Below, piece after piece: positions 8,553-47,203 of a DNA stretch of 64,000 nt. Location: NCBI GenBank assembly GCA_034509735.1, contig JACGWO010000001.1:16074854-16138853 (forward strand), given 5' to 3'. The stretch comes from Sesamum alatum (taxonomy: Eukaryota > Streptophyta > Magnoliopsida > Lamiales > Pedaliaceae). A program made the position numbers and the translations under genes. The notes below the pieces were generated by a model that was not told where the DNA came from, made no database searches, and saw only the letters and a program-made list of their open reading frames with translations. The first letter of the stretch is position 1; each line of letters begins with the position of its first letter.

Positions 8553-9138
8553 TCAAATCAGAGTTTTACTCATCACTTCTTTGTTCATGGAAGTTGTGCG
8601 ATGTGGAGGAGCGCCGGGAGGACTACCATGACCCATACCTGGGCTATGACCTTCTTTTGTCGGTCGTAAAGCCTTGCTCTCCCAATTTTTATACATGTTC
8701 AACTGTGGAGGAGCGTCGGGAGGACTACCGTGACCCATACCTGGGCTATGACCTTCTTTTGTTGGCCGTAAAGCCTTGCTCTCCAAATTCTTAAACATGT
8801 TCAACTGTGGAGGAACGCCGGGAGGATTACCGTGACCCATACCTGGGCTATGACCTTCTTTTGTCAGCCGTAAAGCCTTGCTGTCCAAATTCTTATACCT
8901 GTTCAACTGTGAAGGAGCGCCTGGAGGACTACCGTGACCCATACCTGGGCTATGACCTTCTTTTGTCGGTCGTAAAGCCTTGCTCTCCAAATTCTTATAC
9001 CTGTTCAATTGTGGAGGAGCGCCAGGAGGACTACCGTGACCCATACCTGGGCTATGACCTTCTTTTGTCGGTCGTAAAGCTTTGCTCTCCAAATTCTTAT
9101 ACCTGTTCAACTTGAAACTTACATCATTTATCGGAATC
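8553..9138 (-). CDS. nsLTP-CEP hybrid gene U1, exon 2: five CEP-like peptide repeats
   Basis: If spliced to exon 1 (ending at 9993), the joined frame is 933 nt, 310 aa plus stop. After a short linker starting A-I-P-I-N-D, five 34-residue units follow, each with a domain like ALRPTKEGHSPGMGH. The domain matches the C-terminally encoded peptide (CEP) pattern xFRPTxPGxSPGxGH, including both prolines that are hydroxylated in known CEPs (positions 4 and 11). In unit 3 Pro4 is Leu. The tail ends HRTTSMNKEVMSKTLI. The acceptor is ttggcag at 9145-9139. CEPs are secreted signals sensed by CEPR receptor kinases in Arabidopsis; that role here is inferred. The plus strand of this array is broken by a stop near 8791, the minus strand is not. 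Confidence 0.72.
8601..9110. repeat. 102-bp tandem repeat, 5 units (CEP array U1)
   Basis: Five direct copies of a 102-bp (34-codon) unit. Variation lies mostly in the spacer between CEP cores. The period is a whole number of codons, so unit gain or loss keeps the frame. Confidence 0.95.
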
Positions 9139-10395: not shown

Positions 10396-10404
10396 TATTT
10401 ATAG
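10396..10404 (-). promoter_or_regulatory. TATA box of nsLTP-CEP gene, U1
   Basis: CTATAAATA on the minus strand about 57 bp upstream of the ATG, which would leave a leader of roughly 30 nt. Upstream promoter sequence to about 10660 is conserved among the units. Confidence 0.75.
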
Positions 10405-15498: not shown

Positions 15499-16788
15499 TT
15501 TTTATATATAAATATAATAGAAAATATTAATATTTTAATTTACAAGGGACACTGATTTGAAATTTGAATTTCAAAGGGAACCTACCAAAAATAAAACAAA
15601 AGATGCAAACATCCATCCCCCTCGATTCAATGTTCAGCAACACAGAATCTTTTTTCCCAGTGTATGATGCTTCTACTAAGGGGGTCTTTGGCTAAGCTAG
15701 TTAGTGCAATTTGCTATTTCCAATTTATTTATTTCATTGATGGTAAGGGAAGAAATGCTCCTTATTTACAGTTTTTTAATGACTTGTACAAATATATTTA
15801 GTGATTAAGACTTTAGTAAACGGGTTGGAGTCCGTCATACCCCCACTTAGGCAAATGCAACTTTAACAAAAAAAACGGGGTTAGGCTAAGTTTATTTTAA
15901 AAATCTTATAAACTCATACATCATATAAAATATTTTTAAAACTTGTAAGATGTTAAATTTTATTTTAAATATAAGATCTTTGTAATGACAATTTTGTAAT
16001 TAACTTGCTTTAAATGGATTGATGGATTTGATTTGAGGAAATGATTTAGAGAAAGGATTTCAAATGACACAATATTAAAAGATTTGGAAATCCATCAATG
16101 TTCAATAAAATACAATTCAAATTTAGAGGTAAATGATTTAAATCCTTTGAATTTTAAGTTATCTGAATAAATTCGACAAACTTATGACTAAGAACTTGAA
16201 TTCTATAATTCATCTTTTGTTTTCACATTAATCTTTCATCTTTTAAGATTTCTTTGCACCAATGAAAGTGCTCTTTTTCTAATTTCATTGCCGGTGGCAA
16301 TGTCATTATATTTATGATTTAATTGAATTTAATCATTTTATGTTTATTTGTACTTATTTTATTTTTTCGTTCATGGTATCTTAATCTACTCCTTTCTTTT
16401 TATTCAAATGCAAAAAATGATATTGAGATTTTAAAGTTATTTTAAATTATTTCTTTTTATCCTCCATCTTTCTTTCTTTCTTTCTTCTTTTTTTTTTTTT
16501 TTTTTTTTTTGGTTACCATTTTAATTGTCTTTCTTATAACTCATTAAAAGTAAGTGTCTATTTTTGCTTTATATTTTATTTTTTTTAATAAGTAAGATCA
16601 TTTTAAATTTATGTATTTTATTGTAGTTTTTAATGGAAGATGATTTATATAATACAAATAATATATCTGACTAATTCTTTATTTTGTATAATTTTATATA
16701 GGGTTGAATATATGTACAAAGTGATTATCTATATATTTTATAGAATGTAATAATTGTTTAAAAGTAATTCTCATATAATACAAATATA
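15499..16788. other. Non-coding stretch, end of U1
   Basis: AT-rich sequence shared with U2 (36532-37769) and partly U3 (41900-42290). No open frame has support. A pyrimidine/poly-T run lies at 16465-16510. The last part (from about 16520) resembles the 3' half of the intron Helitron, so it is probably the body of the Helitron whose 3' end lies beyond the MULE at 21081-21111. Confidence 0.5.
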
Positions 16789-18438: not shown

Positions 18439-20085
18439 TCAACCTTGTTCCCTCGATTGGTTGTCCTTTCTTGTTTTCCTGGGCCTCTCATCAACCTCTA
18501 GTCTTCTTGCTCTTGCTGGTCTACCTACTTGTCTTCCAGGATTGGGAGGGAGAAGTGGTTGAATATTAGTTTTATCCCACTTCTCAAGGCCATTAACAGG
18601 GTAGATTTGTTTTTCCCTTGCTTTAAGTATGTTTGAGTTGAATGACTCACACAGATTATTTAAAGAGTATGTCACATTTTGGTAAGGTACTAAAATGCGA
18701 CCTACTCCATTGATGTGGGGGCTTATCATTTAATCACTCACCCACTTTAACATCAAGTCTGCAAATTTCTTTGAATCTGGCTTCAAATTCTGTTACAGTA
18801 GTAGCCCTAACAGCTTTCCATAAAGCCTTCTTATATGCCAACCCCTTGAATCCCACCCTATTCATATTGCCATGCAAATGCCTCACACAAAACCTATTAT
18901 CTGAGGCAGGAAATACAATTTCAAAGGCGGGTATGAGTCCCTTTTGCTTTTCAGACATAAAGGTCCACTCATTGTCCCTCTGTATACTAAGATCATGCCT
19001 TAAAAGAGTAAGGAACCATTCCCGTGTCTCTCTAGTTTCCCCACCCACCACAGCATAAGCAATTGAGAAAGAATCAATGTTTGGGTCAATCCCCACCGCA
19101 GTCAACATTACCACCACAAGTGGACCTTTTAGGTGAGACCCATCAACACCTATTATCTTTCTACAACCAGCAAGGAACCCCATTTTCACCCTCTTAAAGC
19201 ATACATACAGTTTCTCAAACATTAAACCCCCACTACCATCACTGACTGACCTGCCTAAAATAAATGTAGACCCATGATTTGACCTCCTCAATTCCTCAAC
19301 ATAGTCCCATAGCATCCCACATTGATCTACAGACACTTCCTCAATTTTTCTCAAAGCATTCCACTTTGCCCTGTAAGCCTGACTTCTAGAAATATGGCAT
19401 CTTACATCTTTAATTACATCATACCTAAACCCCTTAACATTTATTTTAGGATCAGTCCTAAATATTTCTTCATATCTCTTCCCAAGCCATGCGGAATTAC
19501 AATTTTTCACATGATAGTTTGCCCCACACTCATGTTTATCATTGAAATCTCTAATTTGGAATGTTGACTGGTCACCTATAACCAAAGCATGCAACTTCCA
19601 GCCACACCCCTCCTCCTGACACTTAGCATATAGCCTCCTCTTATCATTTCTTGTTATTTTGATGTTCCTTCTAGTTTTTACAGCATATGAGTGTATGGCA
19701 ACTCTAAGCTCATTCTTTGAACTGAATAACATTCCAATGGCAATCTTTGGATCAAAGGTCCCTACAACACTAAAAGCAGGATACTTTGCCCCACCCTCTT
19801 CATCGAAATCCTTATCAGTATTAAAATCCTCTGAATTAGATAAATCATCCTCCCCCTTACTTCCAGAACCAATTTAAGCATTTCAACCCCGTTTAGAAGT
19901 AATACAAACCTAGTATCCAACTTATAATACCTCTTTTCCCCGTTACAACCTATCTTTTCAGTTAATTTGTCAAGATAAGCTAGACCTATTAGATTTAGAT
20001 CTACATAATCAAACACAGCTATCCCCCCCCCCCCATTGTAACTGTTCTGAGTAAACCTACCCCCATGGTGCAGTATTATAGTCAC
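18439..20085 (-). pseudogene. MULE transposase, copy 2 (decayed)
   Basis: In order: N-terminal region (20085-19762, HHGGRF), MuDR DNA-binding and core (19732-18734, 332 codons, IIGVDGSHLKGP), then a frame change at 18730 and the C-terminal part (18729-18439) with LCESFNSNIL, the ESxN motif near the third acidic catalytic residue. SDxQKG reads MSEKQKGL, as in copy 1. The region between the core and CESFNS is much shorter than usual, so internal sequence is lost. Core identity with copy 1 is very high. Confidence 0.88.
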
Positions 20086-20469
20086 AACAGGCTCAAGTTC
20101 ATCTGAAAATAATAAATTAAAAAACTAATTAAAATCTAACAGTATACAAGCAAATATATAGAGAAACAAGAAACTGTACATAACATAGCAATCATACAAA
20201 GAATAGAGAGAATATACCTAGTTTTCATACCAAACAAAAAACTATAGATAGCAAATACACCCAATTTTCAACTAAAATTTCCAAACATAACAATCATACA
20301 GAGAATAAAAAAAATGTGTATATAGCAAATATACCAAAACATAAAAGACCATACAAAAAAAATATATCAAACAATAAATATGGCAAACATTTCTGGGACC
20401 ACAAATAAAAAAAAAGGCTCCCTTGTTCGTCTTTCTCCCAACAAGAAACAACAAACAAGACATCAAAAA

Positions 20470-20615
20470 AATCCTAATTTGGGACCACAAATCTACGGAT
20501 AATAATTTAAAACCCTAATTTGGGACCACAAATCTATGATAATAATTTAAAATCCTAATCTGGGACCACAAATCTATGGATAATAATTTAAAACCCTACT
20601 CTGGGACCACGACGA
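20470..20615. repeat. Minisatellite inside MULE-2
   Basis: Same roughly 41-bp unit as at 1715-1862, about three and a half copies. Confidence 0.75.
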
Positions 20616-21080
20616 CCAGAAAAATCATTTTTATTCCCCAAATACCCTATTAAATTTACTTACTGTAAAGTGGGGAAGGGGGGGATTTCCATTGAACTTG
20701 GGGTCGCGCAAGCTCATTGCTTCAACAATAGGTGTTGTTTCTTCCACTCCAACGCTGGTATCTCGCCTCTCTTTCACGTTCTTGGTTTTGGATTTAAGTG
20801 GAACCTGGGGGTGATTTTGAGTTTGGATTTAAGAGGATTTGGGGCTGCGTATGATTTAGGGCAAATTGAGTAACCTAAACGAATTTACCCCAGGCCAAAA
20901 ATGATTTAACAGCCACGTGCTCCGCGCGTGGCCAGCTCCGTTAAATAATAGATGGAATTATAGACGTGGACCAAAAGTGTTAATTTTTGCAACTTACGGG
21001 ACTAAAAGTGCTACTCCCGTAATGAATGGTACCAAAAGTTAAACAGGCCTAACTTACGGGACCAAAAGTGCTATTTTTCC

Positions 21081-21111
21081 TACAACTGTACATATCACAG
21101 GTCAATGCTAG
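21081..21111. repeat. Target duplication and Helitron 3' terminus left of U2
   Basis: tacaactgta (target duplication of MULE-2), then catatcacaggtcaatgctag. This is the severed 3' end of the Helitron whose body lies before 16799. Confidence 0.65.
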
Positions 21112-21127
21112 TATATATATATATATA

Positions 21128-21626
21128 GGGTTAATTACATTTAGACCCCCTCTGAAAATGTATAGTTACACTTTCCCCCAAAGAAGTTTTGAAATTACAT
21201 TTTCACCCCCTCTAAAAATTCTTTGTTTACACCTGACCTCCATTCGTTAAAGTTTGGGTGGAAAATGTTCATTTCAACAAAAATAATTACATAAATTTTC
21301 AATTTTACCTCTCATTTAACATTCTCGTGCAATAATTTTGTACTTATAAGGAAAAAACATAATAATATTGGCCTCACTCCATACATATACGTTACACTTA
21401 TCCTCTTATAAGTACAAAAATATACATGAGAATGTTAAATGATGGAAAAAAATTGAAAATTTGTGTAATTATTTTTGTTGACGTGAACATTTTTCGTCCA
21501 AACTCTAAGGGATGGGGGTCAGGTGTAAATAGAGAATTTTTGGAGCGGGTCTAAGTGTAATTTCAAAATGTTTTTGGGGGAAAGTGTAATTATACATTCT
21601 CAGGGGGGTGTAAGTGTAATTAACCC
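21128..21626. mobile_element. MITE-B, copy inserted in (TA)n of U2
   Basis: 499 bp with long inverted ends: gggttaattacatttagacc on the left, complement of gggttaattacacttacacc on the right. It interrupts the microsatellite that is continuous in U1 and U3. A second member is at 45832-46332. No coding capacity. Confidence 0.8.
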
Positions 21627-21668
<42 letters not shown>

Positions 21669-21673
21669 ATGTG

Positions 21674-22088
21674 TGAATTAAAATGACCTCCCCTAACGTT
21701 TGGCATAATACGGATACCCCTTCGCTAAGTTCAAAAGTTATAAATACCCCCATTAGGTTTGTAACCATCTAACAAATAACCAATATCCATCCATTTTTTT
21801 TGGGTGAATTGACCAAAATGCCCTTGTCCAAATTGAATTATTTTTTAAAATTTTCTAAATTTTTTTGGACAAAAATATTCTTACGTTTTTTACACAGAAT
21901 AACAATAATGTAATTTATCTCAGCTGATTTTTTTATAACTTTAAAGAAAAAAAAATCAAGAGCAAAATGGACCATTTTAGGCCCTTGGCTGAAATTACAA
22001 ACCTCAGGAGAGTATTTGTAATTTTTCAAACAACTAGGAGGTATCCAGAATTATGCCAAATATCAATAGAGGTTATTATAATTCACCC
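21674..22088. mobile_element. MITE-A, U2 copy
   Basis: Same element and position as 2425-2826, with inverted ends aattaaaatgacctcccct and complement of ggtgaattataataacctc. Confidence 0.65.
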
Positions 22089-22215
22089 AATATATATATA
22101 TATGGGACATTGGTGCTTGGTCATGAGTTAATTAATTTTTACGAGGTGATTGAATCTTGTAGGATTAAACAAGCCGTGGATCAGAAGTACATGGAAAAAT
22201 TGTTGTAAGGTAGTT

Positions 22216-22974
22216 TGTTAGGAATACGGCACCAGGATTCAGACCTCCAAAAATTTTAAACCTAATCAACTATTACAGAGAATAGGTGGGTAGGAGAACC
22301 CTTAATACAAAACAGGAAATCAGAACTAGGAGATTACAAAGTTAAAAGAACAGAACAAGAATATATATATATATATATCATAAGCCCTGTGACCAAACAT
22401 TAGGATCTCAGGGAACCAAAGGCTCAGGTAGCTTGTTCCAGATTCGCACAGCCCAAGACCCACAGGGGCCAAAGGCCAGCAACCCAGTCTCACAGTTGCA
22501 AGGCTGAAAAACTCAGAGCTACAAAGGCAGGGCCACACAAGCTATATTCTCAAGACCACAAAGGTCAGGCCACAAAGGGAGGAATCCACAAAGCATTTAG
22601 GGTTTACCACAAAGGTATGTTCACGAAAAACTTTCAGAAGAAGAAGAAGAGATGTTTCAAACTTATGCTCTGAAGTTGAGAAGTGGGAGCATATATATAG
22701 TAGACAGCCATTAATGGAGGCGAAGGAAAACGATGAGACTTTTCAGGCGAAGGAGTGAGAACCAAGACCAGAGTGAAGAGGCGTCAGTAGAGATGTGAAG
22801 GGTCACCAGATGAAATAGGGGTAGAGTCGGGTTAGGGTTAGACAGAAATGGGTTTGGGCTATGTGGGTTGGGTCAACAGAATGGGCCAACCTATATAGTG
22901 GGCTCGGAGAGTTGGCCTGACATCCAGTTAGACATGCGCATGGGCCGAATGGATTTGGGCCACACAATTTTACA
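22216..22974 (-). repeat. Copia 3' LTR, U2
   Basis: 759 bp, tgttagg...ttttaca. Partner of 27605-28375. Confidence 0.9.
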
Positions 22975-23094
22975 TTTTCCACCTTGGACCGAATCCAAGA
23001 GGCCGGAAACAGGGTGTCATCATCGCCATACCGCCAGGGCCCTTTAGAGTGCCTGTAAGAACAGAGAGCATAGCAAAGTTTGCGAAGACAGTAA

Positions 23095-26000
23095 TTAAAT
23101 TAAGTTCAAGATGTTGAGACAATTTTTAAATTTTTCTAAGGAAAGACTTTTTGTGCCCATATCTGCAGGATTATCTTCTGAAGAAACTTTATCAAGGTTG
23201 ATGATCTCTTTTCCGACAATATCTCTAATAAAACGGTATCTTACATCAATATGTTTTGTTCGATTATGAAATACTGGGTTTTGCACAACTGAATACTAGA
23301 TTGACTATCAGAAAATACAATGCCCTTTGTTTAACAAACCAATTTCAGTTAACAGTCCCTTAAGCCAAATGGCTTCTTTAAGAGCTTTTGTGATGGCAAT
23401 ATATTATCCCTCAGTAGTAGACAATGTCACAATATTTTGAAGTTGAGACTTCCAGCTAATGCATGCACCACATAGTGTAAAGATATAAGAAGTAGTAGAT
23501 CTCCTAATGTCCCTATCATTAGCATAGTTTGAATCTACATAGCCAACTAGGTTCACTCCATCAGGACACTTAGAAAACTTTATGCCAGCATTCGTAGAGT
23601 TATTCAAATATCTTAGTAACCATTTAAGTGTTTCCCAATGCGTAGAACTAGCATTACATATATCTACTCAGACAACTAACAGAATAAGCAATATCAAGTC
23701 GAGTACTTACCATTAAATACATAACATTTCCAATAGCATTTGAATAAGGAATCTTTTTTCATGCTTTCTTTTTCAGATTCAGTTTTGGGACTTTGTTCCT
23801 TACTAAGTTGAAAATGAGCAGCCAAAGGAACACTAGTAGGTTTAGCATTCAACATTGAAAACTTTTCTAACACAGTTTTCATATAAGATTTTTGATTCAG
23901 AAGTATGGTAGAAGAATTTCAATTTCATTCAACAGACATCCCAAGGATTCTTTTAGCATCACCAAGATCTTTCATTTCAAAATTCTTACACAGATTGTTT
24001 TGCAGTTCTTTAATTAAAGACATGTTGGGACTGGCAATTAGCATATCATCGACATAAAGAACTAGAAACACTGGATCATGGGATTCATATTTGAAATACA
24101 AGCATGGATCATATGCTCTTCTAAGAAATTTCAGAAACTTCATAAACAGATCAAGTTTCCTATTCCATTGTCTAGGTGATTGCTTTAGACCATATAAACA
24201 TTTGTTAAGCAAACAGACATGATCAGAAAATTTCTTGTCAACATAGCCGGTAGGTTGATTCATGTAAATTTTCTTGTCCAGTTCACCATGCAGAAAAGTG
24301 GTTTTAACATCCATTTGTTTTAGTTCCTAGTTAAAATGAGCAGTGAGTGCAAGCAGATTTCTTACAATCGTATACTTTACAACAGCAGAAAAGATTTCAG
24401 TGTAATTTATGCCTTCTTTTGAGTGACATCTTTAGCTACTAGTCTAGCTTTGTAGCGAGTTGAATCATTTTTTTGTTTTATTTTAAGAGTCCACTTGCAG
24501 TCTATAACAGATCACCTTTACATTTAGGTAGGGTCCAAGTTTTGTTTATGTTTAAAGACTCAAGTTCTTCATTCATGGCTTTTACCCATTTCTTAGAATT
24601 AGCAGATTCTAAAGCTTCTTCATAAGAGGATGGTTCAAAGCCTTCAGCATTTAGAACTAAGTGAAAGTATTTATATTTTGAAGGAATCCTAGGTTCACGT
24701 CTCTCTCTATCTCTATCTAATTGATAGTTATTAGTACTAGAGTTATTAGAGATTTCATTAGGATGCTCATTCTCAATGTTTTGATGTTCATCTATGACTT
24801 GTTCTTCTTGAAGGTTTTCTTCCATAGGACCTTCCACCTTATTAAAGGTGCTATCTATATTAACATCAGTATCTTTCTTAGGATATAACAAACAAGGCAA
24901 GTCTAATTCATTAAAAGTTTCATCCCTACTAATTATAACCCTAAAAGTTGGTTGGCTTCTAAGCCAAAACCTATATCTTTTAACTCCTTCCGAATAACCA
25001 ATGAACACTCATTTTTGTGTACGAGCATTAAGTTTATCAAAGTTTTGTAATGCAAATGCAGAGCATCCAAAAATACGAAGATTAGAAAGATTTACATCAT
25101 TTCCATACACATTCAGGCAGTTTTCCAGATAAAGGAACAGAAGATGAACGATTAATCAAGTAAGCAGCAGTTAATAAAGCTTCGCCCCAGAAAGATTTAG
25201 CAAGACCAGAACTGATCAAAAGACATCTAACTTTATTTAGCAAAGTCCTATTCATACGTTCAGCAACACCATTTTGTTGTGGGGTGTAGGGAGTGGTCTT
25301 GTGTCTTTTTATTCCAAACTCTTCACACAAATCTGAGAGATTTTGGTTAAAAAATTCCAAACCATTGTCAGTTCTAAGAGTTTTTATTCTCTTACCAGTT
25401 TGGTTCTCAACTAAAGTTTTTCAGGTTTTGAATTTATCAAAAACTTCATATTTGTGTTTCATCAAGAAAATAAAATTTTTTCTGGAAAAATCATCTATTA
25501 TAGAAAGGAAATATCGGTTTCAACCATGAGTTGGGACATTGGCAGGTCCCCACACATAAACATGAATATAATCAAGTTTGTAAGAAGATAAAGTAGGATT
25601 TGGGAAAGGTGATGATGGAAAATGCACATTATGGTGTTTTCCAAGAATGTAGTTATCAAAAAATTCCATTTTCATCAAATTCTTCATTCAGAATGCCATG
25701 CTTATGCCTTTCATGCTTATGTGTCCAAACCTTTTATGTCGTAAGTCAGTTTTACTGTTTTTCAAGACTGGAGCAACAAACATATCATATTTCACAGAAT
25801 AAACATATAGGCTCCTTTTTCTTTCTGCCTTAAACATAGTAAGGGATCCTTTCATGACTTTCATGATACCCTTACCCCATCTCCCCTCTAACCCTTCCTC
25901 TTCTAAGGCAGCACATGAGATCAAATTGTGGCATAGATCAGGAACATGTCTCACATTTTTTAGTGTAAGTTTGAAACCATTTTCAAAGGTTAAACACACA

Positions 26001-26290
26001 TCACCAAAACCATGCACATCACATAATTTCTCATTTGCCATGGAAACATAACCTAATTTCTCAGATTTATAATTTGTAAAATCTCACTGAAAGGAGTTAT
26101 GTGAAAAGTACATCCAGAATCAATAAGCCATTCATTCATATTTAAAGAGGATTTAGCAGAATTGACATCACATATCATGTATACTTCATCACAGCTTTCT
26201 TTAGTCACATTAGCAGATTCATTTGAATTATTCTTCTTAGGCTTTTTGCAATCTTTAATGAAATATCCTCTACCCCCACAGTTATAACAT
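23095..26290 (-). pseudogene. Copia pol, U2 (protease, integrase, RT, RNase H), decayed
   Basis: From high to low coordinate: zinc knuckle at 26289-26248 (CYNCGGRGYFIKDC, with the expected His changed to Tyr), protease with IDSGCTFH (about 26130), GAG-pre-integrase (26041-25688, RHVPDLCHNLIS), integrase C-half (25360-25097, TPYTPQQNGVAERMNRT), linker (25008-24502), RT (24314-23925, DVKTTFLHGELDKKIYMNQP and LYVDDMLIAS), RNase H (23607-23404 and 23286-23095). Stops and frame changes break it at many points. Confidence 0.85.
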
Positions 26291-26326
26291 CTTTTATCCT
26301 TCTGTTTCTCATTATCATTTTTATCA

Positions 26327-26597
26327 TCTATACTATTTTATTATTGAAGAGAGCCTCTTTGGTGTCCAAATTAATTTGGCCTGCCATTTTTTTAAAAAAA
26401 AATAATTAATTAACTATTTATAACTTCACCATGATCTTTCATAACTACCATTGGTGGATTTTTTTTCCTCATGCATTTTATCTTATTTTAGGTAATTTTG
26501 AACTTTACAAAAAGTAAATAATATAATTTATAAAAATATTTTTATTAAATATTTTTTAAAAATTATGCACATATATAGGATGTGCCACACTTACTAG
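26327..26597. mobile_element. Short Helitron inside Copia gag, U2
   Basis: 271 bp, tctatactatttta...ttactag between host A and T, with hairpin gcacat-atatagg-atgtgc close to the end. Orthologous to 6764-7038. Confidence 0.85.
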
Positions 26598-27268
26598 TAC
26601 CTATTATCATACTTATACTTCTGCTTAGACTTATTCCTACCTCTGCTTTTGCTTCTACTTTTACTGTGTCTTCTGAATTTATAATCTGAGTTTCTGTTTT
26701 TGGTTCTACCTCTTACAAAATTCACTTCATTCTGATTCTGACTAGGTTTGTTTGTTTTTAAATCCATTTCCTTACTCTTGAGACCACTTATTACTGTTTC
26801 AAGGTTTACATTATCTCTTTCATACTTAATAGCAGCTTTAACATCACCATATGAATCAGGAATAGCATTTAACAGAACTATAGGGGAATAATCATCAATG
26901 TTCTTATCACTGGTTAACTTAATGTCCTGAATTAATTTAGTGAAATCATCTATGTTTTCTTCAATGTTTTTAGTTGTATCAAGTTTATATCTAAAAAATT
27001 TCTCAAGTAAGAAAAGCTTGCTAGGTAAAGAAGTTTCAGTATAAAGTTCTTCAAGTTTTTCCCATAATTCTTTTGCAAAATTTTGTTTACCAACTTTTGT
27101 AATCACAGAGCCAAACAAGTTAATAATAATAGAAGAATATGCATACTCATCATTTTCAAGTCTTTTTTCTTCAGAAACAGATTCAGCATATTTTCCATCT
27201 ATTGCTTTAAACATTTTCTGTTGAATCAATATGCCTTTCATTTTTTGTTGCCATATAGTATAATCCAT
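26594..27268 (-). pseudogene. Copia gag, U2
   Basis: 224 codons beginning MDYTIWQQKMKGILIQQKMF, a UBN2-type gag, with a basic SR/KSK-rich end. The zinc knuckle that should follow is cut off by the Helitron. This is the fullest gag in the window and shows what the U1 copy lost. Confidence 0.85.
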
Positions 27269-27591
27269 TTTTCCATCAAAAGGCAGTAAACTATAACCAA
27301 CAATATTTAACAGATACTATTCAAGCAGACAGTTCAGATAGATAGACAGAATATAGAATACTCACCACAAGTTCAAGAGAATAGAAAACACAGATAATCA
27401 GCAGAAATTAAAAGGGTGCTTGACTAACACCTCGAGACAGATTCCCGGCGGCCTCAAGGGCCCGGCCAGGTGAGGATATTAGCAAGGGTTGGTCTTGGAC
27501 TGATAGTAGTAATAAATGAAAGAGAATAAGCAAAGTTAGAGTTTAAAGAGCATATTACTGTAGAAGCGACTGAGCCCTAGGCTTAACCCAA

Positions 27592-27604
27592 GCTCTGATA
27601 CCAC
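27592..27604 (-). other. Copia primer-binding site, U2
   Basis: gtggtatcagagc on the minus strand next to the 5' LTR, complementary to initiator tRNA-Met. Confidence 0.85.
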
Positions 27605-28375
27605 TGTTAGGAATACAACACCAGGATTCAGACCTCCAAAATTTTTAAACCTAATGAACTATTACAGAGAATAGGTGGGTAGAAGAACCCTTAATACAAA
27701 ATAGGAAATCAGAATCAGGAGATTGCAGAGTTAAAAAAATAGAACAAGAATATATATATATATATATATATATCATAAGCCCTGAGAACAAAAATTAGGG
27801 TGTCAGGGAACCAAACAGGTAGCCTGTTCTGGATTCGCACAGCCCAAGACCCACATGGGCCAAAGCCAACAACCCAGTCTCACGGTTGCAAGGCTGAAAA
27901 ACTCAGAGCCACAAAGGCAAGGCCACACAGGTTGTATTCTCAAAACTATAAAGGTCAGGCCACAAAGGCAGGAATCCACAAAGGATTTAGGTTTACCACA
28001 AAGGTAGGGTTCATGAAGAACTTTCAAAAAAAGAGAGGACAAGAAGAGATGTCTTAGACTTATGCCCTGAAGATGAGAGGAGGGAGCATATATATAGTAG
28101 ACAGACATTAATGGAGGCGAGAGAAAATGAGGAGACTTTTCAAGCGAAGGGGTGAGAACCAAGACCAAAGTGAAAAGGCGGCGTCAGTGGAGATGTGAAG
28201 GGTCACCAGATGAAATAGGGGTAGAGTCGGGTTAGGGTTAGACAGAACTGGGTTTGGGCCATAGTGGGTTGGGTCAATAGAATGGGCCAACCTGTATAGT
28301 GGGCTCGGAGAGTTAGCCTACCATCCAGTGACACATGGGCTTGGGCCGAGTGGATTTGGACCACACAATTTTACA
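27605..28375 (-). repeat. Copia 5' LTR, U2
   Basis: 771 bp, tgttagg...ttttaca, followed by cagtt. Confidence 0.9.
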
Positions 28376-28535
28376 CAGTTAACTTGGTTTTAAATTTTTA
28401 GGTTTTCATTGATGGATACTTAAAGCTCGATATTAATTCTTCTTCACATTTTGCTCCATTTTAAATCCATCTGGGGAATTAAAAGTTGCTTTAGTGGACG
28501 AACAGAGCAGTAAAAACATTTAGTTAAAGCTTCAT

Positions 28536-28541
28536 TTTATT
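28536..28541 (-). terminator. Poly(A) signal of nsLTP-CEP gene, U2
   Basis: AATAAA on the minus strand about 70 bp past the exon 2 stop, conserved in all three units. Confidence 0.55.
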
Positions 28542-28606
28542 TATAGAATATATTCCGATGCATGTACAACAGTACAAGGCTATCAAATCAGAGTTTTACT
28601 CATCAC

Positions 28607-29678
28607 TTATTTGTTCATGGAAGTTGTGCGATGTGGAGGAGCATCGGGAGGACTACCATGACCCATACCTGGGCTATGACCTTCTTTTGTCGGTCGTAAA
28701 GCCTTGCTCTCCAAATTCTTATTCTTGTTCAACTGTGGAGGAGCGTCAGGAGGACTACCGTGACCCATACCTGGGCTATGACCTTCTTTTGTTGGCCGTA
28801 AAGCCTTGCCCTCAAAATTTTTATACTTGTTCAATTGTGGAGGAGCGTCGGGAGGACTACCGTGACCCATACCTGGGCTATGACCTTCTTTTGTTGGCCG
28901 TAAAGCCTTGCTCCCTAAATTCTTATACCTTTTCAACTGTGGAGGAGCGCCAGGAGGACTACCATGACCCATACCTGGGCTATGACCTTCTTTTGTCAGT
29001 CGTAAAGCCTTGGTCTCCAAATTCTTATACCTGTTCAACTGTGGGGGGGCGCTGGGAGGACTACCGTGACCCATACCTAGGCTATGACCTTCTCTTGTCG
29101 GCCGTAATGCCTTGCTCTCCAAATTATTATACATGTTCAACTGTGGGGGAGCGCCAGGAGGACTACCATGACCCATACCTGGGCTATGACCTTCTTTTGT
29201 CGGTCGTAAAGCCTTGCTCTCCCAATTCTTATACATGTTCAACTGTGGAGGAGCATCGGGAGGACTACCGTGACCCATACCTGGGCTATGACCTTCTTTT
29301 GTCGGTCGTAAAGCCTTTCTCTCCAAATTCTTATACATGTTCAACTGTGGAGGAGCGCCGGGAGGATTACCATGACCCATACCTGGGCTATGACCTTCTT
29401 TTGTCATCCGTAAAGCCTTGCTCTCCAAATTCTTATACCTGTTCAACTGTGGAGGAGCGTCGGGAGGACTACCGTGACCCATACCTGGGCTATGACCTTC
29501 TTTTGTCGGCCGTAAAGCCTTGCTCTCCAAATTCTTATACCTGTTCAACTGTGGAGGAGCGCCAGGAGGACTACCGTGACCCATACCTGGGCTATGACCT
29601 TCTTTTGTCGGTCGTAAAGCCTTGCTCTCCAAATTCTTATACCTGTTCAACTTGAAACTTACATCATTTATCGGAATC
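28607..29678 (-). CDS. nsLTP-CEP hybrid gene U2, exon 2: ten CEP-like peptide repeats
   Basis: Joined to exon 1 (ending 30531) the frame is 1419 nt, 472 aa. Ten 34-residue units follow the linker. Seven carry exactly ALRPTKEGHSPGMGH; unit 3 has Met and unit 7 Leu for Pro4; unit 6 reads ALRPTREGHSLGMGH. The spacer (GSPPGAPPQLNRYKNLESK type) varies more. Common changes between units are silent on this strand but not on the other: CGA CCG versus CGG CCA (Arg-Pro), and CAC versus CAT in GMGH. The acceptor is ttggcag at 29685-29679. Two later AGs (before T-TTC and G-TAT) are in the same phase, so any of the three gives the CEP frame. A GTAAGT lies 16 nt into the exon; if used as a donor it would remove the array. 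Confidence 0.75.
28631..29650. repeat. 102-bp tandem repeat, 10 units (CEP array U2)
   Basis: Ten head-to-tail 102-bp units, the longest array in the window. Both strands happen to be open through it (365 codons plus, 347 minus). Confidence 0.97.
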
Positions 29679-29726
29679 CTGCCAACATTTCAACAAGTTC
29701 AGATTTAGGTACTAACACACACAAAC

Positions 29727-30477
29727 ATATATATATATATATATATATATAGCAAGACGATGGTTGACCACAATTAAGTTAATTTTGACCAAATACTAGC
29801 TTCTGGTAATTTTGAATTTTTTAATTGTCAAGAAAAAATGTCAATGTTTAGAACATCCATTTTAATTTAAAAATCCAATTTTTTTTATCTAAAAATTCCC
29901 ATTTTTAAGATGAGTGTTTATCTATTCTAAATTCTACCTTCAAAATTATGATTAATGTTTTATCATATAAAATATATATTTATTTTATCACTAAATATCT
30001 ATTTTCATTTTAATCATATACTCATATCCTATAGCTAAATTGATGTTCTGCATTTATCATGATTCTATTTTATTTTTATATATTATTTTTCGTGATACTT
30101 GAAACTTATTAAAAGTAAGTTTTAATTCTCGCTTTATATTTTATGTTATTTTTTACAAAGTAAGATCATTTTAAATTTATGTACTTTAATATAGATTTTG
30201 ATGGAAGATGAATTATAACAAACAATACATTTAACTAATTCTTTATTTTTTATATATTCTATAGAGTTTAGCGTATGTGTATGAAAATATCATTTTCAAC
30301 AATAATCAAAATAAATTAAAAATTAAAAAATGCTATGTTTTTTCCTATTTTTAAAATGAAAAGTTTTATTGTATGAAAAAGATTCCTTTATTAAGCAATA
30401 TATTATAAAAATATATATTTAATTTTTTTAAGAAAAGAAATATTATATAACCACGCGTAACATGGGTTCCACACTAG
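29727..30477. mobile_element. Helitron in the nsLTP-CEP intron, U2
   Basis: Runs from a (TA)n run at 29727-29751 to tccacactag before host T. Same insertion as U1 9187-9927, within the 852-bp intron (30530-29679). Confidence 0.7.
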
Positions 30478-30526
30478 TATATATATATTCAGAAATAAAG
30501 AGAGAAACAAAGAAAAATAGAGATTT

Positions 30527-30877
30527 TTACGCATCACAATTGACGTTGAGCTGCACGGGAACGGGTACATCAATCTTGCAAAGCTGGGGAAGTTGTTTTG
30601 CGTTGTCTTGATTAAGTTTAACTGACAATGCAGCCTGCTTGAGGCACTGACAAACAATTTTTCGGTCTGCCGACGAAACGGTGGCTTGAGCCAACGATTG
30701 AGCACCTACGCAACAATTGGTGCTAATTTCCCCCACTCCTAGGAGAAAGGACTGGCACGATACCAGAAACTCCAAAGCCTGTGTGCATGAAATGGCTTCT
30801 GCCGGGGCCGGAGGACTGAAGGTTATCAGGGCCAGAACCACCACCGCTACCAACCACCTCAGACTACTATAACCCAT
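30527..30877 (-). CDS. nsLTP-CEP hybrid gene U2, exon 1: type I nsLTP
   Basis: ATG at 30877, signal peptide MGYSSLRWLVAVVVLALITF, then all eight cysteines with type I spacing. Unspliced it ends NVNCDA plus stop at 30529-30527. The donor GC/GTAAAAATC puts the exon end at 30531, phase 2, matching exon 2 at 29678. It differs from the U1 protein at only a few residues (for example VSCQSF for ISCQSF, CQC for CHC), and the frame is intact. Confidence 0.92.
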   Translation of the reverse strand: MGYSSLRWLVAVVVLALITFSPPAPAEAISCTQALEFLVSCQSFLLGVGEISTNCCVGAQSLAQATVSSADRKIVCQCLKQAALSVKLNQDNAKQLPQLCKIDVPVPVQLNVNCDA

Positions 30878-30933
30878 TTTGTATTGGAAAGTGAATGATG
30901 TTACTTGTGGTGAAGTAGAGGAACAGTGCGCGG

Positions 30934-30942
30934 TATTTATAG
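30934..30942 (-). promoter_or_regulatory. TATA box of nsLTP-CEP gene, U2
   Basis: CTATAAATA on the minus strand, 57 bp before the ATG, as in U1. Confidence 0.75.
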
Positions 30943-32291
30943 AGCAAGAGGGACCTAAAAGCATGTGCTTCTCACATAATTTCTCCTCTTAGGGTGGGAC
31001 CCTAAGCTATACCTATAAGTTGGTGAGTGCAATGAATGCATATTCTGAGAAACCCACATTAAAAAAGTACTTTTTGATGAGTTCGAAGGAATGTTGTTTG
31101 ATATGCTTCCAAAAAAGTCTTGGTTGGATCTTAAATGCACAACTTTTTTAGCAATTTCAAAGTTTTTTATTTTAAAATGATGGTACATTTTCATAATGCA
31201 TTTTAAATATATAATTTTATTAAATTAATAATATTTATATTTTTTCAGAAATATTTATATATATCTACATATATAAAAGAACGAATTTTGACTTCGATTG
31301 AGTTAATTTTGACTCCTTACTAATTTATGGTCATTTTAAAAAAAAATTATAAAGGAAAAATCTTGGTAACTCTGGCTACAATTGAGGTAATTTTGACTCA
31401 ATACTAATTTTTAATAATTTTAAATTTTTTAATTACTATGAAAAAAAATCTCATTTAGAACATCTCATTTATTTTAAATTAAGAATTTAGCTTCTATTTA
31501 TCTACAAAACTCTCTACACAATATTTTATTTTCAAAATTAGTACTTATCCATACAAAATTCTATCATCTAGGTCATGAAGCTAATCAATTTGTATTTATC
31601 TTAAACAAATTCAGATTTGAGAGGATTTTGTATTATGTTCATAAATATTACTTAGCTTATCACTATCATTTATTTTTAATTTTAACCCTATACTTATTAA
31701 TCCATCATTCATTGTTCCAAACTTACATCAATCTTAGAAATTTGAATTATTTAATTATCACCAAAAAAATCTAATTGGTTGGCTTAGTTTTAGCAGGAAT
31801 TTAATTAAGAAAATCAATTAATAAGCTAAATCTTTAAAATTTGGCAAGAAAAAATACATTTGGCTGATTTAATTTTATCATTCAATTTATTTTTTTTAAA
31901 AATAAATTAGTTCACAAACTAAATTCATAAAAATTTGCATGAAAATGTAGAAACAGGATAATTATATTTTAAGAACACCAAAGACAAGCAATAATTAACA
32001 AAAACTGTTTAAAATTTCATAATGAGAGCAAACGCCAACCCACAGTGCAGCATTATACCGCTCATTCTTTTTGGTTTACTCAAACTTAGCCATTTTAATG
32101 CATGGATGACCGTTTTCTTTTGCGATGCAAATTACTAAGCTACATTATTAGTGATATATTCATATATTTTGTGATATAAATACAATTGATTTTACATATA
32201 GGATATCACATTCTTTTATTATTAGGATTTTCATTTTTATATGTTAGTTTTTCCTCTTTCTGATTTCATGTTGTTGTGTTCAAAGTTCTGC

Positions 32292-33422
32292 AGATTAAAT
32301 GCAAAATTCATCATCTAACTTGAGCCCATTGGCATTTTAATCATTTATGTATTTAGGATAGCAATATGATCCTCCAACTTTTTCAAAGTCGCAATTTAAG
32401 GACCTCCGGCATCGAAAATTTTTAAACACCCTAGAAAATGGCGCATGTGCTGCATGTGCTAATCTAAAATTGGGGTCTGGTTTATGATTGGTTGCTATGG
32501 AACTGATGTGGTGTGGGCCACTGCTGACTTAAAAAAAACAAGAAAAAAAAAAACAATGTGGCATGAAACTGCCACGTCACCTTTGTTGACTTGGTGAGTT
32601 GGTAGTGAGTCGGGCATGACTGACTTACCAACCATCACCCCGCCGCCACAAATCAGCTCCACATCACCATTGACTACCGACCACCACCATCATTGCCGCC
32701 ACGGCTCCACCGTCAAAAAACTTTTCCAGCACGTATCCGGCCATGCGCACGACCATCGGCAGTTGGTTCCCCGTCAGAGCTGTAATGTGCCCTCACTCAC
32801 ACCAAACAGCAGGTTTGAAAGCCCTAGATCCCCTTTCCTCCTCATTGTTGATTCGCCGTTGTGCGACCACCTTTTTCTGTCGCACAACCACCAAAAGATT
32901 CCCCTGCTCACAGCGAACTTTTTGAGCCCACACCCATCAATTTTGGTCACCTCTCCGGCCAGATCTCTCTCCTTCTTTGTGCGCAAATTCCCCCTCGAGT
33001 TTTTTGTCGTTTCTCTGTCCGACAGTCATTTTGCCGGCAAACAACGGCCCCTGGATTCGCCTCCTCACAGTGGACCTATCCTGCCGATCCATTTCCGTCA
33101 TCACACCATTTTCAGTCATGCCTGACTCACCACCAACTCATGTACTCCTAAACCAACATCACCCTTTCTTTTTTTAAGTCAACACACAATCCACCTCCCT
33201 TATCCATGTCACAATTAATCGACCAATGCAAGAAGAACCCCCATTTTTTCTGCATCGCGTGCAGCCCATGTGCGATTTTTTGATGACTTAAAAGTTTTCC
33301 TGCAATGGAGTCCTAAATTTACGAGAAATGAAAAACTTACGGGACTATTTTGCTACAGTAAATATTTAAAGGACTAAAATGCCAATAGGATCAAGTTACA
33401 GGACTACTTTTACATTTAATCT
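32292..33422. mobile_element. Pack-MULE-like TIR element, U2
   Basis: Counterpart of 11766-12890, with ends agattaaatgcaaaattcat and complement of agattaaatgtaaaagtagt. Pro/His-rich frames in the core persist but carry replacements. Confidence 0.55.
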
Positions 33423-34532
33423 AAGTTTGGAGTAGTTTATTCTTATGATGTATAATTATTTTAGTTAACGATTTATTGTTTAACTCACCCAAACTATTTA
33501 TTTCTCAAAGTTGTTCCTCTTTGAGAATAATTTTTTTTAATTATTCAGTGATATGTTATTACGTGCTTTAATTTTCTCTTTCATACTTAGTTCGATTATT
33601 TTTTTTATTACTTTCTAAAGTGTATTTTTTCAGTTGTTTCTCTAATTTGATTGTGCTCAATCATCTTATTGTTATATCCGTAGTTTCATGTTTCTTTTTT
33701 ATTTGCATATGTTTTTTTCTTTTTCATTTTTTCCCCAATAGGAAGACATGTATAATGAGGTTCCCATATAAATTCATTTATTTTATTTTATTCTTTCTCT
33801 TAAAGCTATCTAATTTATGTAATAATTATGTTTTTTTCTTCTTCTTTTTATTTTTTTTTAATTTCTTACAGTAGGGGTGAAATTTTTATTTTAGTTTTTG
33901 CCTAACTAAAATAAAATTTTGAGAATTACATGTCTCGTTTCAATATATGTTTACTTTCTCAAATTTTTATTTATCTAGATATTAAGGAGACTAATTAATA
34001 TGAAAAAAATAGACTTATTTTTGTTGTAAATTCATTTGTTCATTTACACATGTTTTCTATTAAAATACTTATGTTACATTAATATTTTAAAATATAGTGA
34101 AAAATAAATTTTGTTAGAATTTTGATAGGTTGATATTTTACTATTTGTTTCAATTTATTTTTTTTCCTTTTTTTATTTGGCTTCCACTTAACATGGCTTT
34201 TGGTGCTAAATAAAATTTGGAGATAGTAGTATTTTGTTGAACTCAATCGAACCCTAATAGTTAATTTATTCAATTAATTCTATTTTTTCACTGTTTTGTC
34301 GACTTTAAATTTTGAGTGTGTACAAATTAAAAATTAACATAGTATTTTTTAAATAAGAAAAGCAATATAGGCAAAGTCTAAAAGTTCCTTAGCTTCATTA
34401 GTTCATTATGGTTTTGTTGTTTCATTTATAATGTCAATGCAGATGAAGGTGAATATATAAACGAGCTTTACTAAAGACGTACAATATTAAAAATTGATAC
34501 AATAGCTACGAGTTTTTCGTGATATAGAGATA

Positions 34533-35844
34533 GGGAAAATTATTTTTTTGGTCAGCTAAGTTTACCTAATATTATATTTAGTCCTGTAACTATGCCCTTT
34601 GTTTATTTAGTTCAGTAAATTATAAATTTGATGACATTTAGTCCGATTTAGGGTTTTTAATAAATTTTCCGGCATGTATTGTCGGAATTTGCCACGTGTG
34701 CACCGAAATTTCCAACAAGCGAGGAATTGATGATGTAGTGGTGACGTGGCACACACATGAGTGATTAAAATTTTTTGTTGCTCATGGGATTTAAACTTGG
34801 GTCTCTCACAACAACAGATGCTTCTTCTACCACTTGGGCAACAACCAATATATATACTATTTGCTAAACCATCTTTTATAACCTATATATCTGGGAATAC
34901 TTTAATATAAAATTGATATTAATATTACTAAAAACTTTAGAAAAAATTAAACCTCAAAATATCGATATTTAATGATATAGTTTATTTTTTTTATTCAATA
35001 AAAATATAATTAGTATTGATATTATATATATATATATAAATTATATATTAATTTTCATATGCTAAATTATATAATTTTACATAATTATTTCTTATTTTTA
35101 AAATTTATTATAATATATTATATGTTTATCAAAGATTTATAAATTCTTATTAAATTAATAAATATGTTATGATTTATACACTTAAAATTGCTTATATATT
35201 AATTTTAATGTCATAATATTTTAAATATTATATATAAGCATTTTTATATATAAGCTAGTTTGTAAAATATATATAAATTAGCATATGAAAATAAATATGC
35301 AATTTGTTTTTAAATATATATATATATATATATTTCTTGTTAATATTCCACTATTAAGATAAATATCAATACTAATTATATTTGTTTTGAATAACAAAAT
35401 AAACTATACCATTCAATATCAGTATTTTTAGGTTTATTTTTTTTAATTTTTAGTAATATTAATATTAATTTTATATTAAAGTATTTTCAGATATCTAGGT
35501 TATACAAGATGATTGAGCAAATAGTATATGTACGTTGCTCAAGTGATAAAAGAAGCATTTGTTGTTTGAGAGACCCAAATTCAAATCCCATGAGCAACAA
35601 AAAAAATTTAATCACTCATGTGTGTGCCACGTCACCACCACATCATCAATTCCTCGCCTAGTTGGAAACTCCGGTGCACACGTGGCAAATTCCGACAATA
35701 CATGTCGGATAATTTATTGAAAACTCTAAATCGGACTAAATGTCATCAATTATGTAATTTACTGAACTAAATAAACAAAGGGCATAGTTACAAGACTAAA
35801 TCTAATATTGTGTAAACTTAACGGATCAAAAAAATAATGTTCCC
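34533..35844. mobile_element. Foldback MULE-like element, 1.3 kb, U2 only
   Basis: Starts gggaaaattatttttttggt and ends complementary, ...aataatgttccc. It is flanked by 10-bp direct repeats tatagagata (34523-34532 and 35845-35854). U1 has one copy of that site without the element (near 14810). The two arms, roughly 500 bp each, are inverted copies around an AT-rich loop near 35020-35340. No protein is encoded. Confidence 0.9.
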
Positions 35845-37778
35845 TATAGAGATACCATAAGGTAGATTCACTATTTGAAATTAACCCCTTATTGGAACAC
35901 GAGCATTATTAAAAGCTAAAGAGAAATATGATACTTTGATTCTTTTGTGATACCAAAAACAGATTAAAGATTCAAGAATTAAGAACAAACACACAATACT
36001 ATTTTTTACATGTTTATTACATCTCAGAAAATGTTATATTACCTGCATTACATTTTATGTCATAATAATTTTTATTAGAATCTTAAATATAAAAGATAAA
36101 TGCCATCAATTATAAGTTAGAATTCAATATATTAATTACGTAGTCATCAATTATTTCCCAATTTATCTTCATTAGAGTTTGTACTAAATTTTATTAACAA
36201 AAAATTGAATAGTATTTTAATATATTATTTAGCTCATACTTAAATTTATTCTTAGTAACTTTCTTCAAATAAATAACTGGTTGTTTTTTAGTTTTATAAA
36301 AGTAATAATTATTCAATTATTTATATTGATATATATTTTTTTGTATACATTGTGATTATTATGAATTTAAAAAGGGATTGTTAATATTGATGAATTGTAA
36401 TTTGAGGAACAAAAACTGTCTGCATCATTAATCTAAAAGTATTTCTTTCAATTGTCACATAATTAAAAAATTTATGAAATATAATTTTAATTAATTAAGT
36501 TAATCCATGTATAGCGCGGGTTACACGCTAGTTTTTATATATAAATGTAATAGAAAAATATTAATATTTTAATTTATAATAGGACACTGATTTGAAATTT
36601 GAATTTCAAAGGGAACCTAACGAAAATAAAACAAAAGATGCAAACATCCATCCCCCTCGATTCAGTGTTCAGCAACCAAGCATCTTTTTCCCCAGTGTAC
36701 GATGCTTCTACTAAGGGGGTGTTTGGCTAAGCTAGTTAGTGCAATTTGTTATTTCCAAATTTTTTATTTCATTGATGGTAAGGGAAGAAATGCTCCTTAT
36801 TTACAGTTTTTTAATGACTTGTACAAATATATTTAGTGATTAAGACTTTAATAAACGGGTTGGAGTCCGTCAGACCCCCACTTAGACAAATGCAACTTTA
36901 ACAAAAAAAAAAACGGGGTTAGGCTAAGTTTATTTTTAAAAAATCTTATAAACTCATAAATCATATAAAATATTTTTAAAACTTGTAAGATGTTAAATCT
37001 TATTTTAAATATAAACTTACGAAGTGTTTGGATAAAATATTGATTGTGCAACTTACTAATATCTTTGTAATGACAATTTTGTAATTAACTTGCTTTAAAT
37101 GGATTGATGGATTTGATTTGAGGAAATGATTTAGACAAAGGATTTCAAATGACATAATATTAAAAGATTTGGAAAATCATCAATGTTTAATAAAATACAG
37201 TTCAAATTTAGAGGTAAATGATTTAAATCCTTAGAATTTTAAGTTATCTAAATAAATTCGACGAACTTATGACTAAGAACTTGAATTCCATAATTCATTC
37301 TTTTGTTTTCACATTAATCTTTCATCTTTTAAGATTTCTTTGCACCAATGAAAGTGCTCTTTTTCTAATTTCATTGCCGGTGGTAATGTCGTTATATTTA
37401 TGGTTTAACTGAACTTAGTCATTTTATGTTTATTTGTACTTATTTTATTTTGTCGTTCATGGTATCTTAATTTACTCCTTTTCTTTTTATTCAAATGCAA
37501 GAAATGATATTGAGATTTTGAAATTATTTTAAATTATTTTTTCCTTTTTATCCTCCATCTTTCCTTTTTTTTTTTATTTTATTATTTCAATTGTCTCTCT
37601 TATAACTCATTAAAAGTAAGGGTGTATATTTGCTTTATATTTTTTATTTTTTTTAATAAGTAAGATCATTTTGAATTTATGTATTTTAATGTAGTTTTTG
37701 ATGGAAGATGAATTATATAATACAAACAATACATCTGACTAATTCTTTATTTTGCATATTTTTATATAGGGTTGAATA

Positions 37779-42919: not shown

Positions 42920-43757
42920 GGGTTAAATACGGTTACCATCCTAAAAGTATCCACCCATATCAATTACCCCTAAAGTATTAAAACCTTCCAAAAAAAAACC
43001 TGACCTTTAATATTTAAGTTTAAAAAGTCCATTTTACCCTTACAAAAATTATTTTCTTAAAATAAAAAGTTAATGGGATTTCTAAAATAACAAAATCATT
43101 ATTTGTCCAAGCTTTGTCTAATTCTAGTTTCATTTGTTCATCGAGCTCTTTTATTTTGATCTTCCTAAAGTACTTGGAGCTCATTTTATTTTAGTTTCAC
43201 TTGTTTGTCAAACCAAGTTAAGAATAAGTTAATACATACATATAATTATCACATTTATATAAGTACCATATATATTATAAATATATATTAATTGTATATT
43301 TTTTTATTAGTTCATCTGCCCTTTTGATTTGATTAATCCATATTTATATAATTATCATATATATATAAGTATATGTTATAAATATATATTAATTGTATAC
43401 TTTTTATATTAGTTCATCAGCCTTTTCAGTTTTTATTAATGATATATTTTTTAAGTAAATATATATATATATATATGCATATATAAATTTATTTTTAATT
43501 TGGTTTGACAAACAAGTGAAACTAGAGTAAAATAAACATCAAATACTTTAGGATTATGAAAATAAAAAGAGCTCGATGAATGAGTAAAACTAGAATTGGA
43601 CAAAGTTTCGACAAAGGGCAATTTTTATATGTTAGAAATTCCTTTAATTTTTCATTTAAGAAAGCAATTTTTGTAAGAGTAGAGTCGACTTTTCAAGCCT
43701 AAAAATTAAAGGTTACGTGATGTTTTGAAAGATTTTAATGTTTTATGGGGTAATTGA
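42920..43757. mobile_element. Inverted-repeat (foldback) element next to promoter relic
   Basis: Arms are inverted copies: left 'caattacccctaaagtatta' and 'tcgagctcttttattttgat'; right 'gttttatggggtaattgatt' and 'aaaaagagctcgatgaatga'. An AT-rich loop lies near 43230-43490. The left arm extends about 45 bp further than the right, whose end is cut where the promoter relic begins. Confidence 0.75.
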
Positions 43758-43986
43758 TTTCTCCCCTCGTAGTGGGACCGTAAGCTATACCTATAAATTG
43801 GTAAATGCAATGAGTGCATATTCTCATAAACCCACATTAAAGAGGTGATTTTCGATGAGTTCAAATGAAGGTTGTTTTATGTGCTTCCAAAAAAGTCTTG
43901 GTTGGATTCTAAATGCATAGCTTTATTAGCAATTTCAAAGTTTTTGTTTTTAAAATGATGATACGTTTTCATAATGCATTTTTAAA
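43755..43986 (-). pseudogene. Relic of a fourth nsLTP-CEP unit: upstream region only
   Basis: Matches the region 5' of the nsLTP TATA box in U1 (10439-10670) and U3 (41615-41845): gtgggaccgtaagctatacc, ggtaaatgcaatgagtgcat, cttccaaaaaagtcttggtt. No TATA box, nsLTP or CEP exon follows; the foldback element abuts instead. It points to a fourth unit that lost its gene. Confidence 0.75.
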
Positions 43987-46990: not shown

Positions 46991-47203
46991 TACAGAGGTC
47001 CCATTTGTAGATTATTCAAATTTAATAGATTTTAGTATGGGATCTCTAGCACGAAAAGAAATTAGAAAAGAATTTTTAGAGAAAAGGTGGGAACCATTTA
47101 GGAGAAGGTTCTTTGAAAATTTTCTCTTTAAAACCTGAAAAATAATTTCTGACCAATTTTATAAAGAATTAGCTATAAGAAATAGGATTGCAGCTTTTAT
47201 TCC

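Follow-up and report, generated by a model that had tools for sequence, protein, structure and literature searches.

A candidate hybrid precursor gene joining a type I nsLTP to an array of CEP-like peptides, present in three copies in a Sesamum alatum contig

What lies at the locus? On the minus strand of the window (the whole stretch of 64,000 nucleotides analyzed here) an exon encoding an nsLTP is followed by an exon encoding an array of CEP-like peptides. The initial annotation reported one such module; self-comparison of the window reveals three, which we call copies A, B and C.

10339-8553, minus strand: copy A module, five units, 310 residues
9993..10339, minus strand: copy A exon 1, nsLTP
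8553..9138, minus strand: copy A exon 2, five CEP-like units (four exact cores, one variant)
30935..30947, minus strand: copy B TATA-like box CTCTATAAATACC, in which TATAAAT starts 64 nt before the exon 1 ATG
30531..30877, minus strand: copy B exon 1, leader plus type I nsLTP (residues 1-115 plus 2 nt)
29679..30530, minus strand: copy B intron, 852 nt, 20.2% GC, GT...AG, phase 2
28607..29678, minus strand: copy B exon 2 coding part, head plus ten CEP-like units plus tail
41513-39995, minus strand: copy C module, one intact unit, 172 residues
41167..41513, minus strand: copy C exon 1, nsLTP, 85% identical to copy B over 115 residues
39995..40166, minus strand: copy C exon 2, a single intact CEP-like unit followed by a second one that is decayed and out of frame

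The coordinates, reading frame and phase-2 intron first given for copy B all hold. Exon 1 extends for 347 nt from the ATG at 30877 to 30531 and ends in phase 2, the 852-nt intron reads GTAAAAATCTCT...ATGTTGGCAG, and exon 2 starts at 29678, with a stop codon that ends at 28607; joined in phase 2, the two exons encode 472 residues without a stop. Exon 2 consists of a 9-residue head (IPINDVSFK), ten 34-residue units and the tail RTTSMNK, and at the DNA level the array is a 102-nt tandem repeat of 10.0 copies (28632-29652). The ten copies of the peptide originally described stand as ten units but not as ten identical peptides: seven of the ten cores are exactly ALRPTKEGHSPGMGH, while B3 carries P to M, B7 carries P to L, and B6 carries both K to R and P to L. 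The 347-nt exon 1, the exon order and the intron phase are common to copies A, B and C, and the TATA-like box lies at the same offset from the exon 1 ATG in all three. The introns are 19-20% GC versus 48-50% in the exons, and AATAAA occurs 41, 65 and 119 nt past the fused stop in the three copies.

Exon 1 has the cysteine pattern and the profile matches of a type I nsLTP, but not a basic isoelectric point. Its eight cysteines are spaced 9-13-0-19-1-21-13 in all three copies, which fits the type I pattern, described in the sections of PMC2277411 available to us as an eight-cysteine motif with 19 residues between Cys4 and Cys5. Pfam and PDB matches agree with this spacing and with the initial annotation: copy A passes the cut-offs of both LTP_2 (27.4 bits, cut-off 22) and Tryp_alpha_amyl (22.7, cut-off 21.7), and all 17 PDB sequences matching the nsLTP part at E up to 0.001 are lipid-transfer proteins, the best at 3.9e-13. 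A low-confidence structural model of copy B exon 1 (pLDDT 57.5) has four helices, and the best 17 of its 54 PDB matches, among the matches listed, are nsLTPs. The hydrophobic stretch LVAVVVLALITF (core residues 9-20, mean Kyte-Doolittle 3.2) is followed by an AEA/I site, and this putative leader is likely cut after AEA-28. The mature proteins have pI values of 5.55 (A), 6.21 (B) and 7.69 (C), which are not basic and lie outside the usual type I range of 8.5 to 12 given in PMC2277411; since the tables of the same paper, as far as they were available, also include acidic members, a basic pI is not exclusive for the type.

The residues of the array resemble CEP hormones in most positions. The commonest unit fits the CEP motif at R3, P4, T5, G8, H9, S10, P11, G12, G14 and H15, and M13 is among the three commonest residues, whereas L2 does not fit. 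In the available text of PMC4197245, CEP positions 7-15 are mostly [PS]GHSPG[VI]GH with P at position 7 in angiosperms, and in that of PMC10515272, a tomato survey, SPGXGH/N is found in all CEPs compared. Here the B6 core, in which the P is L, breaks SPGXGH and the other units fit, and position 7 is E in all 16 units of the three copies. The CEP-like identity first assigned is supported, although every core has E at position 7 in place of the P of the usual motif. Each of the 16 cores is preceded by K and followed by G; a basic residue after internal CEP domains, for which plant multi-CEPs are enriched according to the parts of PMC5103176 at hand, is absent. The array has no cysteines, and a Pfam search returned no match to it. 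Searches of prokaryotic contigs (39 pattern matches) and viral contigs (12) yielded no confirmed relative of the array; plant genes are not expected there. The canonical CEP gene is described in PMC4197245, in the portion available, as having an N-terminal secretion signal and a variable region ahead of the CEP domain, and the 162 CEP genes known there are single-exon, with one apple exception in the accessible part of PMC6387203. Unlike those genes, the array described here sits in a second exon that has neither a secretion signal nor a variable region of its own, and the putative fusion alone would supply a leader.

What is the history of the three copies? A tandem duplication of about 19 kb (1-16710 versus 18769-37778), most pieces of which are 93-96% identical, takes in modules A and B. 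Directly 3' of A and of B lies a copia-like LTR retrotransposon with a gag match (2971-8344 and 22216-28375). The two LTRs of this element are 9.8% divergent in A and 9.0% in B, and the divergence between corresponding LTRs of the two copies is 3.8-4.2%. Copy C has an empty site near 39709, where CAGTT occurs once, whereas A and B have CAGTT on both sides of the element as a target duplication. The LTR differences and the empty site place the insertion of the element later than the branching of C and earlier than the separation of A from B. The exon pair itself is, from the arrangement of these sequences, older than the copia-like insertion, the C split and the A/B duplication. Its intron ends are identical in A, B and C (first 12 of 12 and last 20 of 20 letters), and the copy C intron is 10-11% different from the others, plus indels. 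The two paralogous modules A and C strengthen the pairing of nsLTP and array that was proposed from copy B, and two more whole-module copies in the window together with selection on both exons (below) confirm that the copy B module is beyond chance. A 230-bp piece at 43757-43986, 86% similar to the nsLTP module promoter region, has no nsLTP exon behind it and is a truncated fourth copy.

Other mobile sequences share the window. MuDR/MULE transposase-like ORFs lie on the minus strand at 90-998 and 18734-19873, the second of which matched Pfam DBD_Tnp_Mut and MULE. Several plus-strand ORFs at 46325-54588, one with a retroviral-type aspartyl protease match (49150-49608), are presumably pieces of an integrated plant pararetrovirus or retroelement, which they resemble. 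A Gypsy-like retroelement occupies 60218-64000; its ORF at 61596-62891 matches reverse transcriptase, RNase H and integrase zinc-binding domains.

How is exon 2 reached? In all three copies its reading frame meets a stop five codons upstream of the acceptor, and in A and B no ATG lies ahead of the first CEP core; its translation therefore needs an upstream exon and, because the frame is closed just upstream in every copy, exon 2 would most simply be entered by splicing. Between the Cys8 codon and the nsLTP stop, the proposed donor is the only GT, and it has the needed phase; a phase match by itself is a one-in-three event. In the passages of PMC2277411 at hand, rice and Arabidopsis type I nsLTP genes have, with one exception, a single predicted intron 2 to 73 bp before the stop, so an intron near the stop is to be expected and the initial placement of the proposed joint at an ordinary nsLTP end fits. 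Given the upstream stop, the donor phase and this usual intron place, the simplest reading is a fusion that has the nsLTP intron and in which the second exon is now a CEP array.

The splice signals are less favorable to a fusion. Scored on an approximate position weight matrix, the donor TGC/GTAAAA reaches -3.5 and ranks 37 of 61, 40 of 64 and 36 of 61 among the GTs of the three copies, while donor-like 9-mers within exon 2 score up to 5.0, and 6.8 in C. Four to six AATAAA motifs lie in the intron of each of the three copies, and early transcript ends are therefore possible. The nsLTP stop TAA sits within the first intron bases, GTAA, and would end an unspliced nsLTP at NCDA. The weak donor and the AATAAA motifs suit an arrangement of two neighbours, in which the nsLTP ends with NCDA TAA and its transcript stops in the "intron," and the array would be left over, orphaned or decaying, as the end of a multi-CEP gene that has lost its leader; the decayed array of copy C points the same way. 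On the other hand, the array is constrained in the CEP frame between A and B, the acceptor and phase are kept in all three copies, and the available part of PMC2277411 indicates that type I nsLTP genes normally have an intron at exactly that place. On balance we consider two neighbours unlikely.

Several sites other than the nsLTP donor deserve consideration. In every copy a GTAAGT stands 16 nt inside exon 2 (29662 in B, 9122 in A and 40150 in C, where the context is GAG/GTAAGT) and resembles a donor far more closely than the nsLTP site does; together with CCTCCACAG acceptors at the unit ends in A and B, it could allow whole units to be skipped in frame. From codon 21 on, and leaving the terminal one aside, the phase-2 GTs of exon 1 score -1.0 to -7.9. 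Splicing from inside exon 1 may yield a leader and CEP peptides without the nsLTP, and the GT at 251 does score slightly above the terminal donor (-1.0 in B and -3.0 in A and C, versus -3.5); its use would break the nsLTP after Cys6.

Could the array instead have a leader of its own, overlapping the nsLTP end in another frame and spliced from a later donor? Starting with the ATG at 9996 in A and at 30534 in B, a leader-like ORF (MRKNLYFSLF) reads MRKNLYFSLFLSLFLNIYI... and resembles a signal peptide. Hydrophobic ORFs of 25 and 43 codons are thus present in A and B, and the ORF of B has one fair phase-2 donor, GTGGTTATA, which scores 0.44 on the same approximate matrix. In C, however, a 1-base difference shortens the ORF to 14 codons and deprives it of any phase-2 donor, the only phase-2 GT common to A and B (TTTGTTTCT, -4.56) would cut the leader at 26 nt, and translation would have to start within the nsLTP gene or re-initiate after three to six upstream ATGs. 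Moreover, the T-rich start of the intron by itself spells F, L and S. We regard such a leader as very improbable indeed. As for a separate leader exon within the intron, ATG ORFs of at least 12 codons are short and mostly not hydrophobic there (the highest mean, 1.7, is found in C only), and this candidate was rejected. The other hydrophobic ORFs from a scan of the shared blocks, which uses the first ATG per frame and thus does not list the nsLTP itself, were also set aside: they have no phase-2 donor, and two are short and far upstream.

Both exons carry the signature of selection. For exon 1, Ka/Ks is 0.25 (A-B), 0.20 (A-C) and 0.26 (B-C), the silent share between A and C is 21 of 37 (p 1.6e-5; 6e-4 with a 0.30 null), and the silent share between A and B gives p 0.044. 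None of the three pairs has an indel in exon 1, where intron rates predict 2.5, 7.0 and 6.2 events. By these comparisons, exon 1 is under purifying selection. Its A-C Ks of 0.31 is about three times the intron divergence of 0.10.

When exon 2 of A (units 1-5 with the head) is compared with the same stretch of B, the 18 changes divide into 11 silent ones on 116 sites and 7 replacements on 421 (silent share p 3e-4; 0.006 with a 0.30 null), and they fall 2, 3 and 13 at the three codon positions. In the CEP frame pN/pS is 0.175 without a stop in A, whereas the other five frames give 2.4, 1.1, 5.0, 0.18 and 2.5 and all contain stops in A, from 2 to 16 per frame. The antisense strand of the copy B array is open for 375 codons, and one antisense frame has a comparably low pN/pS (0.176) but 10 stops in A; the sense CEP frame alone of the six combines zero stops in A with a low pN/pS. 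The A-B comparison thus shows exon 2 to be under purifying selection in the CEP frame. Copy C, with a single unit and the head, has 3 silent and 5 replacement changes versus A, and 2 and 5 versus B, numbers in which no constraint is evident.

Within the units, replacement changes avoid the 15-mer core. Across the 16 units, which evolve in concert so that comparisons among them are not independent, pN/pS is 0.15 in the core versus 0.74 and 0.41 in the spacers; 4 distinct replacement variants fall in the 15 core codons versus 20 in the 19 spacer codons (Fisher p 0.002), while distinct silent variants number 4 and 9 (p 0.38). Of the 33 other circular 15-codon windows, one carries fewer replacement variants than the core and a further two equal it, and by themselves the silent shares among distinct variants have no significance (core 4 of 8, p 0.13; second share p 0.29). 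This distribution bears on a reading in which the array, though joined to the nsLTP, is no hormone: it would stay attached as a basic tail, rich in proline, that holds the nsLTP to the cell wall, and its CEP likeness would be a relic. The tail is indeed basic, with a pI of 10.2 for both A and B and of 8.4 for C, and the invariant E at position 7 and G rather than a basic residue after the core suit a relic. Because replacement changes avoid the core, a peptide that is cut out fits better than a whole tail, and we consider the anchoring tail highly unlikely.

We propose that the module is a true hybrid nsLTP-CEP precursor gene, a reading to which we give a probability of about 0.65. The two exons, their phase match, the three conserved copies and the selection on both exons are what is observed; from them we infer the splicing, secretion, proteolysis, proline hydroxylation and CEP-receptor signalling that would follow. 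First, one transcript would run from the nsLTP promoter, and the splice GC/GTAAAA...TTGGCAG/G would join a complete type I nsLTP to the leaderless CEP-like array. Second, the nsLTP leader would bring the whole chain into the secretory pathway, where the nsLTP domain would fold with its own eight cysteines. Golgi or post-Golgi proteases would then cut the array into 15-mers, up to ten from B, five from A and one from C, and the freed peptides would undergo proline hydroxylation and signal through CEP receptors. We count the hybrid reading weaker than it would otherwise be on account of the weak donor, the stronger donors in exon 2, the AATAAA motifs of the intron and the decayed array in C; because the core is not the single most constrained window and its silent variants give p 0.13; and because of the leader-like ORF in A and B, the E at CEP position 7, the lack of evident constraint in the copy C unit and an exon 1 Ks far above the intron divergence.

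A further proposal, which we advance tentatively and think possible rather than probable, concerns dual output. Since the stop TAA overlaps the donor GTAA, a transcript that keeps the intron, or is polyadenylated within it, would encode a plain nsLTP ending in NCDA, and the gene may thus make two products: the plain nsLTP if the intron is kept or polyadenylated and the hybrid precursor if it is spliced, with the hormone dose set by splicing and by unit number. In that event one promoter would release both a lipid carrier and a dose of a nitrogen-type hormone.

Why would a hybrid precursor matter? CEPs have been described as coming from dedicated, mostly single-exon precursors; capture by an nsLTP gene would show that exon capture can move a hormone array onto another secreted protein, and the promoter of that nsLTP gene would then govern CEP output. 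The three neighbouring copies, with 10, 5 and 1 units, are well suited to asking whether hormone dose follows unit number. With a linear hormone, the fusion would also parallel the sunflower albumin precursors that have peptides buried in them; the 2S albumins belong to the same Pfam family as the nsLTPs. According to the part of PMC13157962 at hand, CEP hormones signal nitrogen demand from the root to the shoot. No nsLTP-CEP fusion came up in searches of the main text of open-access papers, and the exact peptide strings had no match there. In the available portions of PMC6387203, PMC10515272 and PMC9532867, lipid transfer proteins are mentioned in one reference entry and two family tables, with no fusion.

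Finally, the gene can be compared with known systems, each as far as it is described in the accessible parts of the papers cited. Apple MdCEP4, 5 and 10 (PMC6387203), with five to seven CEP domains, likewise combine tandem CEP 15-mers, regular linkers and a leader, and the linker YKNLES or YKNLET of the present array resembles the apple linker KFTNVET by eye. In contrast to the apple multi-CEPs, a whole nsLTP here replaces the leader and variable region, an intron precedes the array, and the cores have E at position 7. Type I nsLTP genes (PMC2277411) have the same 8-cysteine pattern and a single intron near the coding end, but their exon 2 is 2 to 73 bp rather than a peptide array of 172 to 1072 nt, and the mature pI here is 5.6 to 7.7 and not basic. 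Multi-domain CEP genes with an intron also occur in Rotylenchulus reniformis (PMC5103176), although these belong to a nematode, are without an nsLTP, and have di-basic residues after all internal domains, which are absent here. By description only, we liken the gene to PawS1 and PawL1 of the Asteraceae (PMC6223261), in which SFTI-1 or orbitides lie within a seed albumin precursor, so that a second bioactive peptide is housed inside the precursor of an 8-cysteine secreted protein. PawS1 yields one cyclic peptide, located before the albumin and freed by asparaginyl endopeptidase, whereas the present gene has repeated linear CEP-like peptides after the nsLTP and in a separate exon. CEPs, nsLTPs and peptides buried in other 8-cysteine precursors are known already; what would be new, as far as the open-access papers searched go, is a multi-CEP precursor with an nsLTP carrier.
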